Source: a virus
Length of the DNA: 25,837 nt
Strand: one strand, 5' to 3'
Virus record (IMG/VR): IMGVR_UViG_3300013094_000246
Location: 1 to 25,837 of that record
Shown: piece after piece, positions 183-6,553 of the stretch
How positions within the stretch are numbered: position 1 is the stretch's first letter
How the letters are laid out: each line of letters opens with the position of its first letter
Program-made: the position numbers and the translations under genes
The notes under the pieces: model-generated
Told to the model about the DNA's origin: nothing
Databases searched by the model: none
The model's input: the letters and a program-made list of their open reading frames with translations, nothing else

Positions 183-1724
183 TTAAAACTCAAATAGTGA
201 ATTGTTTAAAATAGGTGTAGTAGTTTCGACTTTTGGTTGTATTTCTTTTAATAATTCAAAATTAGATTCAACTTCTAAATGCTCGTCTGCTTTAGTGCTA
301 GCGTTAACTGTTCTTTTACCTGTATAACCTCGTGTACCAGGTATCGATTGCCAGAATTTATCAAATTCGTCAACAATAGCATCGGCAGTACCTCGATCAC
401 TTGTTGCAAATATAGCATCTATAATATCCTTAGCATACATTCTGTCAAACTTTTCGTCAACTAACATTGATGGACATAGTCCTGCATCATATCGACGATT
501 GGCTTCTTGTACAGCATTAATATGCATCCATACATTATGCCCCATCATGATAGCGTAAGTAAAACTATCCCACGATGTTTTTCCAACTTTACCATTCTTA
601 TTAACATCATTTGGACCATAGATACAAATCTTGTTAACTTCGACACCGTCCATTACTGGACTTGTAGTAAATGATTGAAAATGCTTATCTTGTACAACAA
701 CATCTTGAAATAAACGATTGTCGTTTTTGTATTTCTTATCATCTAAGCTGGGCAACATACGATACAGCCATTTTTCTCTATCTGTAATTTCTGTTTGCAC
801 ATAAATTTGACCGTTAGCAGTTGCTAAGAAAGGACTAGCACAGTCGAAACTAATAGTAAAGTCACTATTATGATATTTCCTTACAGCTCTTTGTATATCT
901 GTTAAGATTAATGCCCACTCAAGTTTACTAGTTCCTAAGAAGTGCATCCAGTCTTGTTCGCCTTTTTCAAGCAAACCATCAAAGCGTAATGCCACTAGAC
1001 GTTTTAAAGTCAAGTGAATGTCACACATATTTTGTCCACCCATACCCCAACCATTAAAATGACGGCCTGGATATTGCTTTGGATCACAATATTTTTTCAT
1101 GTGCTGATACCAACCTTCTGCATCGGTATGATTTTCACCTTGTAGTACATTTAAGAACTTACAATTACCATTACGATTGTTAATAAAGTAGTCATTATTA
1201 ATAAATGTAGCCTGTACTGCTTCTGCGTATGTACTAATACCTGTTGCACGAGCACCTGCTGGACTACGTGATACCCAAGCTGGAACGTCAAGACACATAC
1301 CGTAATCCATTAACGCATCCATCCAAGCTAACACTTGTGTGCGTTTTTTCATGGCTTTAGGGCAGTTGGGATCTTTCCAATCACCTTCCCATTTGCCTTT
1401 ACCAATCTGGAATCCGCCTGAATCTCCTAACACCCAACTAGTTGCACGATTACGATTACGGAACATGTCTTCGCCTTCATCTTGTTTTGTAAGATCTAAG
1501 TTAGCATGACCTGCACTATACAAACAATGGTCGTAATAAAAAGCACCTTTGTCTGGTTCTAAGTAGTTAAGGCTTTCTACACCATTCTTAAAACTTGCAG
1601 GTATCCGAGCAGGATCGACGTAATTGCTATAACGTTGTTTTCCTATGTACGTGCTATAAAATCCTGATGTTGCCGGTAGGAAATATGCGTAATCGTTTTG
1701 TGTAGCTGTTAAATTTCTATTCAT
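183..1724 (-). CDS. dpdA: DpdA/TGT-like guanine transglycosylase (7-deazaguanine DNA modification candidate)
   Basis: 513 residues with the active-site order of the tRNA-guanine transglycosylase superfamily: DSGGFQ at 101-106, LDVPAW near 145-150, VLQGE at 193-197 (base-binding Gln-Gly), GWGMGGQN at 225-232, and SFDCASP with the presumed nucleophile D294. Spacing between the two key Asp residues resembles canonical TGT. The C-terminal CxCxxC zinc site of tRNA TGTs is missing and the C-terminal 200 residues differ. Phage and island-encoded paralogs of this kind (DpdA) swap guanine in DNA for 7-deazaguanines, which protects against restriction. No preQ0 synthesis gene is in the window, so the base would come from the host or from elsewhere in the phage. 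The last five residues are SLFEF, the same as in the DNA polymerase of this window and similar to the clamp-binding tail of T4 gp43. The superfamily call is firm; DNA rather than tRNA as target is inferred. Confidence 0.82.
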   Translation of the reverse strand: MNRNLTATQNDYAYFLPATSGFYSTYIGKQRYSNYVDPARIPASFKNGVESLNYLEPDKGAFYYDHCLYSAGHANLDLTKQDEGEDMFRNRNRATSWVLGDSGGFQIGKGKWEGDWKDPNCPKAMKKRTQVLAWMDALMDYGMCLDVPAWVSRSPAGARATGISTYAEAVQATFINNDYFINNRNGNCKFLNVLQGENHTDAEGWYQHMKKYCDPKQYPGRHFNGWGMGGQNMCDIHLTLKRLVALRFDGLLEKGEQDWMHFLGTSKLEWALILTDIQRAVRKYHNSDFTISFDCASPFLATANGQIYVQTEITDREKWLYRMLPSLDDKKYKNDNRLFQDVVVQDKHFQSFTTSPVMDGVEVNKICIYGPNDVNKNGKVGKTSWDSFTYAIMMGHNVWMHINAVQEANRRYDAGLCPSMLVDEKFDRMYAKDIIDAIFATSDRGTADAIVDEFDKFWQSIPGTRGYTGKRTVNASTKADEHLEVESNFELLKEIQPKVETTTPILNNSLFEF

Positions 1725-1725
1725 G

Positions 1726-2076
1726 TTATATCAAATGTTGTGCTAATACCATGCAACTTAACCACAACCACATAGTATTAAAACCTACTAATGTAGGTAA
1801 GAATTTTTTTCGACTAGCCCATATTAAAGTAGCACTAGTTACTAATGTCAGATAATAAAATTGCCAAATATCGATATGGAAAATTAATCCTGGAATAATA
1901 ATAATTGCTTTAGCAGTCCAGGATAAAAATTCAATAATATTGTAATCTGTCCAGTAGTCTTTAGTAAACCACATCGAATAACAATCTTTAATTTTACTCC
2001 ATTCGATGTGGGTGTATAATGCTACAATCATTAATGCCCACGCACCAGTTGCCCATATAATTTGATCAGTTGTCAT
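1726..2076 (-). CDS. Small multi-pass membrane protein, unknown
   Basis: 116 residues, strongly hydrophobic, with about four membrane segments by eye: roughly residues 5-23, 50-68, 72-88 and 95-113. Many Trp residues (WATGAWALM, WLWLSCMV) and short polar loops are visible. I do not recognise the family. Its start overlaps the end of the DUF2061 gene by 11 bases, and its stop lies one base before the start of the dpdA-like gene. It is therefore translated as part of the clamp-to-dpdA operon. A membrane role is all the sequence supports. Confidence 0.6.
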   Translation of the reverse strand: MTTDQIIWATGAWALMIVALYTHIEWSKIKDCYSMWFTKDYWTDYNIIEFLSWTAKAIIIIPGLIFHIDIWQFYYLTLVTSATLIWASRKKFLPTLVGFNTMWLWLSCMVLAQHLI

Positions 2077-2245
2077 TTTTACCCCAATTAATTTTTAGCC
2101 ATGCTCTTTCTAACGCATATTGCCAGATAGCCAATACAATATGTATAGCAACGGCTTCGCCTAACCCTGTCCATAAGGCAGTGATAAGCAAAGCTGTAAA
2201 TCTATAAGAAAGCGTTCGAACAATAGTTCGCTTGTGTGTTTCCAT
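2066..2245 (-). CDS. DUF2061-like small membrane protein
   Basis: A 59-residue frame starting METHKRTIVRTLSYRFTALL and ending WQYALERAWLKINWGKNDN. It fits the DUF2061 pattern: an N-terminal E-x-x-x-R-x-x-x-K/R-[ST]-x-x-[WY]-R segment, a central hydrophobic stretch with two short membrane segments separated by G-L-G-E-A, and a C-terminal YxxERxW-x-x-I-x-WG motif. DUF2061 proteins are small bacterial and phage membrane proteins of unknown role. The ATG overlaps the TAA of the clamp gene (TAATG), which suggests translational coupling, and the 3' end overlaps the next gene by 11 bases. I selected it for the family match and this packing. Confidence 0.75.
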   Translation of the reverse strand: METHKRTIVRTLSYRFTALLITALWTGLGEAVAIHIVLAIWQYALERAWLKINWGKNDN

Positions 2246-2976
2246 TACTTGCTTTGCGCTGGCAAGATATAGTCATATATTGCAATACCACTATCTACAG
2301 TAATATTCAATGCACCGGCATCTGCAATACGCATAATTTTATCACCAGTTAGGTTCAAAATACTTTGAACTTGTGTAACAGGCCAAGACCATGTTTGTTT
2401 GAGTTTTCCAGTAATACCTGATTGGAATACAAATGATCCTGCATGTGTGCTTGCATCACCAAAACTAATAATTAGATTACTGTTATCTGTACTAACTTTA
2501 AATGTACCTTCATCTGTATGCGCACTTGATTGGAATTTTAATCTTTGGATTGCTGAAATCGATGGACTAAATTCTATATCCCATTTAGCACCTTTAAATT
2601 TAACAGTTTTCATTACATCATTAATAACATTTTCGCTCATAAAACGATAATCGTTTTCAAAATCTCCAGTATTATTTGTAAAATGTAATCCTGTTACAAA
2701 CGTTTCTTCGTCGCGTTCTTGTTTAACTACATTGATAGTAGCATTTTCTTTGTATTCTGGACACTTAAGGTGAATGTCTAGTTTATTTAAGTTAGGCATA
2801 CCAAATGTGCCTTCTAAATCATCAACTGGATTGTGTGTTTTTGCGTTTAAAATAACACTACGGTCTTCAGCCATTGATTCAATAACTGTTTCTTTATCAG
2901 TGGCACTAATTTTAATTAAAGGTAAAAATCCTAAAGTATGTGTATGTGCTACTAGGTCTTGTAAAAAGTCTTTCAT
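2245..2976 (-). CDS. 45: gp45-like DNA polymerase sliding clamp
   Basis: 243 residues from the ATG at 2976. An in-frame ATG at 2988 exists, but its ATGGAG contains the GGAG ribosome-binding site for the second ATG, so I prefer 2976. The protein resembles T4-type clamps in several places. A FGMPNLNKLDIHLKCPE stretch corresponds to the FGxxxLNxFL-L-x-x-P/D-E segment of gp45. Two alternating strand-helix halves follow, and a C-terminal strand IAIYDYILPA matches the final clamp strand. The length is close to T4 gp45 (228). In T4-like phages the clamp is a trimeric ring that holds gp43 on DNA and activates late transcription. It sits just downstream of the polymerase and dehydrogenase genes, and upstream of a transglycosylase with a polymerase-like clamp-binding tail. 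Identification rests on pattern similarity, not a search. Confidence 0.75.
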   Translation of the reverse strand: MKDFLQDLVAHTHTLGFLPLIKISATDKETVIESMAEDRSVILNAKTHNPVDDLEGTFGMPNLNKLDIHLKCPEYKENATINVVKQERDEETFVTGLHFTNNTGDFENDYRFMSENVINDVMKTVKFKGAKWDIEFSPSISAIQRLKFQSSAHTDEGTFKVSTDNSNLIISFGDASTHAGSFVFQSGITGKLKQTWSWPVTQVQSILNLTGDKIMRIADAGALNITVDSGIAIYDYILPAQSK

Positions 2977-2996
2977 ATGATTCTCCATGTTTGTTT

Positions 2997-3024
2997 ATTA
3001 TATAGGTTTTTCTGACAATGTCAA
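2997..3024 (-). promoter_or_regulatory. Consensus sigma70 promoter for the clamp operon, with palindrome at -35
   Basis: On the minus strand TTGACA (3024-3019) and TATAAT (3002-2997) are both exact consensus hexamers with a 16-base spacer, 21 bases ahead of the chosen clamp start. The -35 box overlaps the perfect palindrome TGACA-T-TGTCA at 3013-3023, which could be an operator. The promoter overlaps the last codons of the dehydrogenase gene, so the clamp can be made independently of the upstream polymerase transcript. Confidence 0.7.
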
Positions 3025-3800
3025 GGATTTTTCCTAACCTTTTTATTATATTCAATGGCCGATTCGACCAAAGTATGTGAAATTTGCAAAGTATCAGCAT
3101 AATGTACAAATGCATTTGTGTCCTTGGGAAAACATGCACCTCCGAATCCTCTACTGCCATCTGGACCAGGAACCATCATGTGACTATTTCCAATACGAGT
3201 GTCATGTGTTAATATTTGTCGAACTAAATCGTAATCTGCACCGTTTAGTTTACACATATCGTATAATTGATTAAAGAATGCCACCTTAACACTTAAGAAA
3301 CAATTAGTAGCATATTTGATCATACTAGCCTCTGTAATACTAGTATTAAACACTATTTTTAACTTAGGGCATGATTCTTGAAATACTGTTTGCCACATTC
3401 CTTCAGGATCATCACCTCCCATAACCATATAAGTTTGATTTTTAAAATCATCATTGGCTGTTACTGCACGTAAAAATTCTGGACTATAACAAATACTATG
3501 ATTAGGAAAATTTTTTAATAATTGTTCTAAATAATTTGGTGGTACAGTACATTTGAGTAATACTGGAATATGTAAAGGCACATCTTTCATTATTTCATAA
3601 ATTTGACTTACATCGCAATCTCCTGATGGTGTGCTTGGTGTACCGACACAAATAATAATACCGTCTGCGTACTTAAAATCTGAAATTTTGTTATTATTAA
3701 TTTTTGGATCAATAATATGTAAAATATTGTTAGGCTCAATAGCATTTCCAACGGCCTTTCCAACAAATCCGTACCCTGCAATTATAATTTCTTTTTTCAT
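3021..3800 (-). CDS. Short UDP-glucose/GDP-mannose dehydrogenase-like protein
   Basis: 259 residues starting MKKEIIIAGYGFVGKAVG at 3800; the upstream extension to 3869 runs into the polymerase gene and is not needed. A Rossmann fold is shown by GYGFVG at 9-14. Family landmarks follow: CVGTPSTPSG near 51-60, SPEFLRAV at 106-113, K162 and N166 in the central helix, and GGACFPKD with the presumed catalytic C223. The family oxidises the C6 alcohol of UDP-glucose or GDP-mannose to the acid with NAD. Usual members have about 400 or more residues. This one stops right after the central dimerisation helix and lacks the C-terminal nucleotide-sugar-binding domain. The catalytic residues are intact, so it does not look like simple decay. 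It lies one base after the polymerase stop. Role unknown: precursor sugars for DNA or capsule modification are possible. Confidence 0.85.
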   Translation of the reverse strand: MKKEIIIAGYGFVGKAVGNAIEPNNILHIIDPKINNNKISDFKYADGIIICVGTPSTPSGDCDVSQIYEIMKDVPLHIPVLLKCTVPPNYLEQLLKNFPNHSICYSPEFLRAVTANDDFKNQTYMVMGGDDPEGMWQTVFQESCPKLKIVFNTSITEASMIKYATNCFLSVKVAFFNQLYDMCKLNGADYDLVRQILTHDTRIGNSHMMVPGPDGSRGFGGACFPKDTNAFVHYADTLQISHTLVESAIEYNKKVRKNP

Positions 3801-3801
3801 A

Positions 3802-6471
3802 TTAAAACTCGAATAAACTGTTAAATGTATTTTTTTCTTCTGTGCTAGTAATATCCCAATCAAGTACACCGATTAAGTTATCTAACTTATTATCAATAAT
3901 GGTCTGTTCCATCTCAGCATGATCAAATGGTAAATCTTTGAACCACTGTGGTAATCTCAGTTCGTCTACTGGATAAGCAACTGATGTATAACCTAACGGA
4001 TTAGGTTTGAGTTTACAAACAATAACCTTTGCACCGTCAGTAATACTCATAGAATATTTGTCACCATACATACGCTTTAGTGAATTCCAATTGATACTAG
4101 CACGAACATGCCCTGGCATGTTGGCTTTACCTGCCTTGGCTTCTTTAGCTTGATAGTCAGTAATGTTGTTAGCACGTTTAGGACTACCTTTTTCCCATCC
4201 AGGGCGCCCTTTAAACTTGATACGGAACTCACTAATATGATCTAGCACTTCTTGTTCGGGCTTACCCATTAAGACCATTTCAAGAACATCACTTAAGAAG
4301 TTTTGTATAAATTCAGGAGTATCGCTACGTTTAAGATCTAACCCCATTGCTTTGATCTTACCAGGCTTACCATCTATATCTGTACGTTTGCCTTCTTTGT
4401 CATAATACAATACAGCATATCGTTTCTTGGTAATAAACAAACTCTTACTACCGACAATTTCACGACCTGCTTTAATTACTTCACCACGACTCTTTGGACA
4501 GTGGAAATAATCTAACATAAACTGTGGGAATGTAGTGTTTACTTCTTCGCCGATTTGATCGTATAATGCAATTACAGTTTCTTTAGTCCAAGGAAGTTTA
4601 CCTGCATCAATATCTTTTTGCAATGTACTGTAAGCACTAAAATAACAACTGTCAGTATCACCGTAAATAACAGCTTTACCTCTATAGTCATATTCACCGG
4701 TAATAATTTCGTTGACCTTACCGGCCATATGTTTAACAATTTGACGACCAGTTAATGTAGTGGATTGACCAATACGTTTATCAAAGAATCTACAACCGCT
4801 ATTGAGAATAGCACCATATAAACTATTCAAGTTAATTTTCTTAACCAGCTGTCGCTTATCCCAATATTCTTCTTCTACTTTATTTCCGGCCTTAATAGCT
4901 TCTTTTAATTTGGCCTGCATTTCTTTACGTTCAGCATACCAACGCTTTAGTAGTCCAGGAATAATACCTTCTTTTTCATAAGTGAATATAGTACCGTTGG
5001 CGCTGAGCATCCAAGGCTGATTACTTTCATAAATTAGTCTATATACTTCGGCAGCACTTAGGATATCAGTGTCTCCGTTTTCCCAATCGATAGTAATATC
5101 TGTGCCGATTTCTTGATTCATTACCGCAGTATATTCTAACGAACCGAATATACCTTCCCATGCGGCCGCAAATGATTTATTTTTAGCCATCTGTGCTTCA
5201 ATATATTCGTCTGTTTTAGTTTGACGTAATTGTCCAATAATAGTTTCTGGACCCATGTTAAGTGCTCTAATAGCACTAGGATACAGTGAGTTAATATCTA
5301 ATGAACCAATCCAATCGTGAATACCTTCTTTAGGATATGCAACATACGCACCTGCGGCCGCAGTATTTTCTTCTCTGTCATCTTTCTTAATACGATTAGG
5401 AACTTGAAAACCTCTGCGATGTGCTTCGTTAATAATAGCTTGTTCGGTTACAGCTACAGCACCCATCGTTGTCTGTAGCAATACTGTATTTTCATGTGCC
5501 AATGTATTGGCAAGATCCATGAATTTTAATTTCTTATCTAGATCATCGAGTAGTTTACAGTCATTGATGTTGTATTCAACAAATGTTCTAAAGTCATTGT
5601 TATATAACTGATCTAGTGTGCCTTCGTATTGCGTTTTGCGTTGGCCCAACTCGTGTTCGGCAATAGCATCTAGTCGATAACTATGACGTTCTTCATATGT
5701 ATACTTACGATATAGTTCAAGATAGTCCAAATGTACACGACCTATATAATCATAAGTTGTTGCTGTACGACCGTATTTTTCATATTCACGTTTTTTAGGC
5801 AGTTGATCAAACAAACAAAAACGTCTTGTATCTTCTTTGCTTAACGCCTTAATAACACGATTAGTGGTATATGGTACGTCAAAACCTTCCGAGTTCCAAC
5901 CACTTAAGATATCCGCATCTTTGATTAGGTCTAAAAACATGTCCAATAAATCTGCTTCGTTATCAAACAAATATGTATTAGGAAAGTCTTTGACCATTTC
6001 CTTGGCTTCTGCCATTTTAAGTTTTTTAGGAGGAATAGCTAAACATACCATAGTCTCTAACCATTGCAGGTAGACAGCAATCGCAGTAATTGGCATGAAC
6101 GCATCGTCTGGACTTGCGTAGCCACGTTCTGGATCAAAGTCTACCTCAATATCGAAAAATGCTACATTTAGTTTTGGAGCATCTTGATTTAAGTAGTGTT
6201 CGCTTAGTGTTACAAAGATAGGATTAATGTCAGACTCATATAAAGTCTTACCGCTATTAATAGCTTGTTCTTTGCGTAGTTCTTTTGTGTTTTTACAAAC
6301 GATACGTGTGAGCGGTTCACTGTAGATTGAAGTAAATTTCCCTCGGGGATCTTTTACATAAAATGTATGACGTACAGGAATATCTCTAAATTCTCTCTCG
6401 CCATTTTTGTTGCGTTCAACCACTTTAACAATATCATTCTCGCGGTCAAACCATGCGTCTACATAAGACAT
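3802..6471 (-). CDS. 43: Family B DNA polymerase, T4 gp43 type, with 3'-5' exonuclease
   Basis: 889 residues (T4 gp43 has 898), starting MSYVDAWFDRENDI at 6471. A GGAG site lies nine bases upstream; the in-frame ATG at 6486 overlaps that site. Exonuclease motifs are present: DIE at 107-109, GWN-SEGFD around 192-198, and YNINDCK around 300-306. Polymerase motif A is SLDINSLYPS (catalytic D392), motif B is KKINLNSLYGA around 544-554, and motif C is YGDTDS (D605, D607). A KKRY segment and KxxGLDLKRSDTP follow in the thumb region, as in other phage gp43 proteins. The protein ends in NSLFEF, equivalent to the T4 gp43 tail (SLFDMFDF) that binds the clamp. It replicates the phage genome with the clamp encoded just downstream. 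Confidence 0.97.
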   Translation of the reverse strand: MSYVDAWFDRENDIVKVVERNKNGEREFRDIPVRHTFYVKDPRGKFTSIYSEPLTRIVCKNTKELRKEQAINSGKTLYESDINPIFVTLSEHYLNQDAPKLNVAFFDIEVDFDPERGYASPDDAFMPITAIAVYLQWLETMVCLAIPPKKLKMAEAKEMVKDFPNTYLFDNEADLLDMFLDLIKDADILSGWNSEGFDVPYTTNRVIKALSKEDTRRFCLFDQLPKKREYEKYGRTATTYDYIGRVHLDYLELYRKYTYEERHSYRLDAIAEHELGQRKTQYEGTLDQLYNNDFRTFVEYNINDCKLLDDLDKKLKFMDLANTLAHENTVLLQTTMGAVAVTEQAIINEAHRRGFQVPNRIKKDDREENTAAAGAYVAYPKEGIHDWIGSLDINSLYPSAIRALNMGPETIIGQLRQTKTDEYIEAQMAKNKSFAAAWEGIFGSLEYTAVMNQEIGTDITIDWENGDTDILSAAEVYRLIYESNQPWMLSANGTIFTYEKEGIIPGLLKRWYAERKEMQAKLKEAIKAGNKVEEEYWDKRQLVKKINLNSLYGAILNSGCRFFDKRIGQSTTLTGRQIVKHMAGKVNEIITGEYDYRGKAVIYGDTDSCYFSAYSTLQKDIDAGKLPWTKETVIALYDQIGEEVNTTFPQFMLDYFHCPKSRGEVIKAGREIVGSKSLFITKKRYAVLYYDKEGKRTDIDGKPGKIKAMGLDLKRSDTPEFIQNFLSDVLEMVLMGKPEQEVLDHISEFRIKFKGRPGWEKGSPKRANNITDYQAKEAKAGKANMPGHVRASINWNSLKRMYGDKYSMSITDGAKVIVCKLKPNPLGYTSVAYPVDELRLPQWFKDLPFDHAEMEQTIIDNKLDNLIGVLDWDITSTEEKNTFNSLFEF

Positions 6472-6503: not shown

Positions 6504-6553
6504 AATACCTTTATGCGGTTTATTGGCCCGCTAGCCTTCTATAGCAATACTTA

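Follow-up and report, generated by a model that had tools for sequence, protein, structure and literature searches.

In a viral DNA stretch of 25,837 nucleotides (IMG/VR record IMGVR_UViG_3300013094_000246, hereafter the window), a protein thought to be a DpdA-like base-exchange enzyme was found to end in the same short peptide as the DNA polymerase. We consider it likely, with a probability of roughly 75%, that this enzyme is tethered to the replication clamp via its polymerase-type tail and exchanges guanines for 7-deazaguanine in just-replicated DNA. In the proposed mechanism, the tail peptide would dock on the PCNA-fold clamp of the phage, encoded three genes upstream, docking would tether the enzyme to DNA fresh from the replisome and the tethered enzyme would then swap guanines for 7-deazaguanine in the new DNA. 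Since the tail is common to the polymerase and the DpdA-like enzyme, the latter probably rides the replication ring, marking new DNA as it goes. Docking of the tail on the phage clamp is what we infer from the sequence pattern and its genomic context, and base exchange in step with replication would be a further step beyond this.

The DpdA-like enzyme is a protein of 513 aa encoded on the minus strand at positions 183–1724, and it was identified from the ORF call, Foldseek and conserved motifs. No match was returned by Pfam and PHROG searches, and searching PDB sequences with a profile did not bring up any tRNA-guanine transglycosylase (TGT), so that a fold search was required. Using the predicted structure (pLDDT 86), all 50 of the 50 listed Foldseek matches in the PDB were TGTs, the best being 4hvx (E 1.2e-6, 14% identity), with a TM score of about 0.5 normalised to the target, which makes the relationship a distant one. 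The protein possesses the TGT motifs DSGGFQ (D101) and ISFDCASP (D294), and both aspartates are invariant in 48 sequences; we take them to be the equivalents of D102 and D280 of TGT. As the top fold matches were exclusively TGTs and the aspartates are invariant, the protein was taken as a DpdA-like DNA transglycosylase, and it is probably a TGT-fold, DpdA2-like enzyme of large T4-related phages. Of 23 large related contigs, 11 have QueD and one has QueC above the cut-off, and in Vibrio phage 2.275.O the DpdA gene is flanked by a 7-deazaguanine gene cluster with QueF, FolE and a gene for queuosine biosynthesis. From these genes we infer that the installed base would be a 7-deazaguanine.

The polymerase, a family B (gp43-like) protein of 889 aa (3802–6471, minus strand), was assigned by Pfam PF00136 (E 8.9e-38) and phrog_262 (E 5e-198); its ORF has an ATG start, with an alternative TTG start at 6504. 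Directly before the stop its C-terminus reads STEEKNTFNSLFEF, and the predicted clamp-docking motif NTFNSLFEF with the stop codon (3802–3831, minus strand) is kept in nearly all relatives. A gp45-like clamp gene had been proposed to lie between the polymerase and DpdA genes, and this was borne out by a 243-aa ORF at 2245–2976 (minus strand; it may start at 2988) whose structure model (pLDDT 93) has the PCNA fold, with a Foldseek match to yeast PCNA (6e49_C, E 3.5e-11). Relatives of this clamp carry the annotation PCNA or sliding clamp. Both the polymerase and the clamp match those of the large myophages Phosso, PA5oct and Vibrio 2.275.O, and the polymerase also matches Atu_ph07 and CBB. Of 202 contigs, 197 have both the clamp and the polymerase gene upstream of DpdA, each at a distance of no more than five genes. 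A UDP-glucose/GDP-mannose dehydrogenase-like gene (3021–3869) lies between the polymerase and the clamp in the window, and 96 of 202 relatives have, downstream of DpdA, a member of a family that weakly matches a glycosyltransferase.

The endings NSLFEF of the polymerase and NNSLFEF of the DpdA-like protein, reported in the preliminary description as standing directly before the stop and as unique to these two genes, were confirmed on both counts: among 25 non-overlapping ORFs of at least 70 aa each, the other ORFs share zero terminal residues with the polymerase. The DpdA-like protein ends TPILNNSLFEF, the proposed docking peptide being ILNNSLFEF with the stop codon (183–212, minus strand). 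This peptide lies in a 48-residue C-terminal tail (residues 466–513 plus the stop codon; 183–329, minus strand) which the structure model predicts to be disordered (pLDDT < 50). With its short peptide of hydrophobic and acidic residues, which resembles the polymerase end and is borne on a disordered linker, the tail has the features of a T4-type clamp client, as judged from sequence and structure model. Calculated from composition, an exact NSLFEF end is expected by chance in about 2.7e-8 per protein, or about 7e-7 across the window. The common peptide is encoded by mostly different codons (aac aat tca cta ttt gag ttt taa in DpdA and ttt aac agt tta ttc gag ttt taa in the polymerase, the serine being TCA in the former and AGT in the latter), and therefore the two ends are alike as protein and not as copied DNA. 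A recent duplication of the tail was ruled out by these differing codons.

The wider comparison drew on 160 viral loci encoding DpdA relatives, both close and distant, on 80 loci with a polymerase (the contigs being partly shared) and on 41 loci from genomes; as single queries the Vibrio 2.275.O and PA5oct proteins found no relatives in IMG/VR, while an alignment query did match. In most DpdA relatives the motif is not at the very end. The preliminary description had stated that homologs without a hydrophobic tail, in phages whose polymerase keeps one, would speak against the idea, and taken literally such homologs exist: many DpdA relatives, at most 89% identical to the window protein, have no terminal tail though their polymerase keeps it. 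However, in nearly all of these an internal [F/Y]xxLF[D/E] lies some 40 residues short of the C-terminus, within tail sequence for which the structure model predicts disorder, and this internal copy explains the discrepancy. Among 72 distinct near relatives, the motif is internal only in 50 and terminal only in 22, with none having both and none having neither. Its position has switched at least eight times on a tree of DpdA bodies, five of these switches being forced by well-supported branches. As the motif is missing at one site only when it is present at the other, it looks like a peptide under selection. The shared unit is better written as [hydrophobic]xx[L/F]F[D/E] than as NSLFEF. A looser pattern was present in all but 7 of 192 contigs, and several of these 7 have variants; the DpdA of Phosso ends EGLF, without the acidic-aromatic part. 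In bacterial DpdA relatives with no phage clamp nearby (L326–L358) the motif was not found, while in matches from genome bins that have the clamp and polymerase it is present wherever the tail is complete, and these are evidently phage contigs. Four loci filed under bacterial or archaeal MAGs (L323, L324, L325 and L345) carry a phage polymerase, clamp and DpdA and are likely to be phage sequence.

The specificity of the motif was surveyed in 236 loci and 37 gene families by searching for a strict form within the last 50 residues. It occurred in 125 of 137 polymerase tails, in 91 of 144 DpdA tails (4 were expected by shuffling) and in 7 of 12 tails of a small nuclease-like family. With polymerase and DpdA set aside, the other families, the nuclease-like one among them, had it in 15 of 1834 tails (0.8%). 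DpdA is undercounted here because the strict pattern misses LNxSLFE. In a 212-kb contig (G004), a near-terminal motif was present in the polymerase and DpdA only, among 262 ORFs. The Vibrio 2.275.O polymerase ends NNTDLFDW and the DpdA of this phage ends NNNDLFGW; among its 509 annotated genes only 3 have an LFxW end. A scan of 12 large contigs for the DNA pattern of LF[DE]F followed by a stop found the polymerase as the sole real gene; DpdA was missed because its motif is internal or its last residue differs. The claim that the transglycosylase carries a clamp-binding tail is thus strongly supported at the sequence level, because the motif is kept at one of two positions, is rare elsewhere and is absent in the bacterial relatives, and because a PCNA-fold clamp is encoded next door, although its simple form, in which the motif is always terminal, was not upheld.

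A number of other proteins with similar peptides were noted. The third LFxW gene of Vibrio 2.275.O (NVP2275O_204, L242:714-938) encodes 74 aa with a CxxC...HxxxC-like pattern and ends SSLFEW. The gene after DpdA in the same phage (L158:9723-10835), with a weak Amidoligase_2 match, has the N-terminus MFNELFDF, which may be due to chance. A family of approximately 190 aa without a Pfam match (L049:13640-14215, L056:13788-14369, L139:13824-14426, L141:19237-19854 and L309:11557-12141) has a PD-(D/E)xK-like stretch, DLEMKSK, and clamp-like tails with endings such as STYNSLFEETV, HFDNLFEPA and TLNSLFIF, making it a possible clamp-tethered nuclease. Small HNH-type proteins near DpdA (L297:11616-12020, L318:9225-9635 and L251:6722-7138) end NPxFxxFFEEV or LNPKLFEVV, an FkbM-family methyltransferase on contig G001 (L234:1814-2860) has the polymerase-like tail NKFESLFDFG, and a DnaE-like fragment protein of PA5oct (L214:7438-8040) ends DPFKLFS.

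It had also been suggested that DpdA tails might covary with the gp43 tail of the same phage. At one locus (L267) NTFGSLFSF is identical in the two tails, at four others (L246, L247, L248 and L286) both tails have FF, and in Vibrio 2.275.O both have W, a match which was read directly from the sequences and is separate from the tables used for Fisher tests. Without phylogeny, the Fisher tests were significant for FF (p 0.0004) and for K (p 0.0009). However, on phylogenetically independent pairs the association was not significant, there being too few switches, and covariation at the level of residues can be described as no more than suggestive.

Other readings of the shared peptide were also weighed. 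A clamp-binding tail could serve a different task, such as bringing the enzyme to sites of late transcription or packaging, on which the clamp is loaded too, or merely storing it at the replication centre. The same motif on T4 gp33 and gp55 serves transcription (PMC2988020) and the clamp interaction of T4 alpha-glucosyltransferase (alpha-GT) did not set the modification share (PMC13216743), but DNA is what a base-exchange enzyme works on, and DpdA has the polymerase and the clamp as its conserved neighbours, and we regard such a task as unlikely. It is quite improbable that the motif binds some other partner shared with the polymerase (SSB, the beta clamp of the host or a polymerase accessory protein) in place of the phage clamp; short clamp motifs do look alike, but the position, chemistry and context of this one fit gp43–gp45, and the gene between those of the polymerase and DpdA encodes a clamp of PCNA fold. 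Host beta-clamp motifs have a leading Gln, which the DpdA and polymerase motif lacks. The peptide is short and only six residues are common in the window, yet chance or local sequence duplication is hardly credible given the expectation for the window, the differing codons and the conservation of the motif across the family at changing positions.

Tethering of the DpdA-like enzyme to the phage clamp would bear on the question of how phages keep new DNA modified ahead of host nucleases, and if true, a peptide that docks a base-exchange enzyme on the clamp would be a mechanism for that protection. We put forward tentatively, and at somewhat less than even odds, the broader proposal that the whole phage transglycosylase family is clamp-tethered and that the same motif recruits the nuclease-like family, the HNH protein and possibly the FkbM methyltransferase. 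If the whole family were tethered, base exchange would be part of the replisome and the clamp would be a hub at which the genome is both marked and edited. With the motif as bait, large phages could also be searched for further clamp clients. Clamps are not mentioned in the main paper on phage DpdA (PMC6884629), and in the open-licence literature no paper linking DpdA with clamps was found. This agrees with the earlier statement that no clamp-tethered DpdA has been described, though the interaction of T4 alpha-GT with gp45 is known.

Among known systems, DNMT1 has a PCNA-binding PIP box and likewise modifies DNA while held on the clamp at the replication fork, but it is a eukaryotic methyltransferase of unrelated fold and motif and is no relative. 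The tails of T4 gp43, gp33 and gp55 are a parallel in form: they end in similar hydrophobic and acidic peptides, which bind gp45 and can stand in for one another, and the gp55 motif, with a divergent linker of variable length, still works internally in a gp55–gp33 fusion (PMC2988020). The DpdA peptide is similarly short and hydrophobic-acidic and either C-terminal or internal, and its flexible linker likewise varies in length, the difference being that the bearer of the peptide is a base-modifying enzyme and not a polymerase or transcription factor. Vibrio phage nt-1, which contains dPreQ0 in its DNA, has a DpdA2 that has been studied by experiment (PMC6884629). This DpdA2 shares TGT-like DNA base exchange, as predicted for the window protein, and its HMLG...ISYD aligns with HFLG...ISFD of the latter. 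The similarity is very weak, with no significant BLAST or HHalign match to the window protein (BLAST E 1.2, compared with 0.003 for the Vibrio 2.275.O relative; HHalign probability 0.2%, E 0.28, with the same catalytic region aligned). The nt-1 DpdA2 is without a clamp-type tail, though nt-1 gp43 ends TLESFFG, and tethering is therefore not needed for DpdA function generally. A parallel in function is T4 alpha-GT, which binds gp45 (Sommer 2004), as confirmed by pull-down (PMC13216743), so that a clamp-bound phage DNA-modifying enzyme is already known. Its clamp binding is not the main determinant of the share of modification (PMC13216743), which advises caution against over-reading the present case. 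Both would be phage DNA-base-modifying enzymes on a replicative sliding clamp, alpha-GT being a glucosyltransferase acting on hydroxymethylcytosine and the DpdA-like protein belonging to another enzyme class, and the tethering proposed here, if true, would extend this one known case to an unrelated chemistry.
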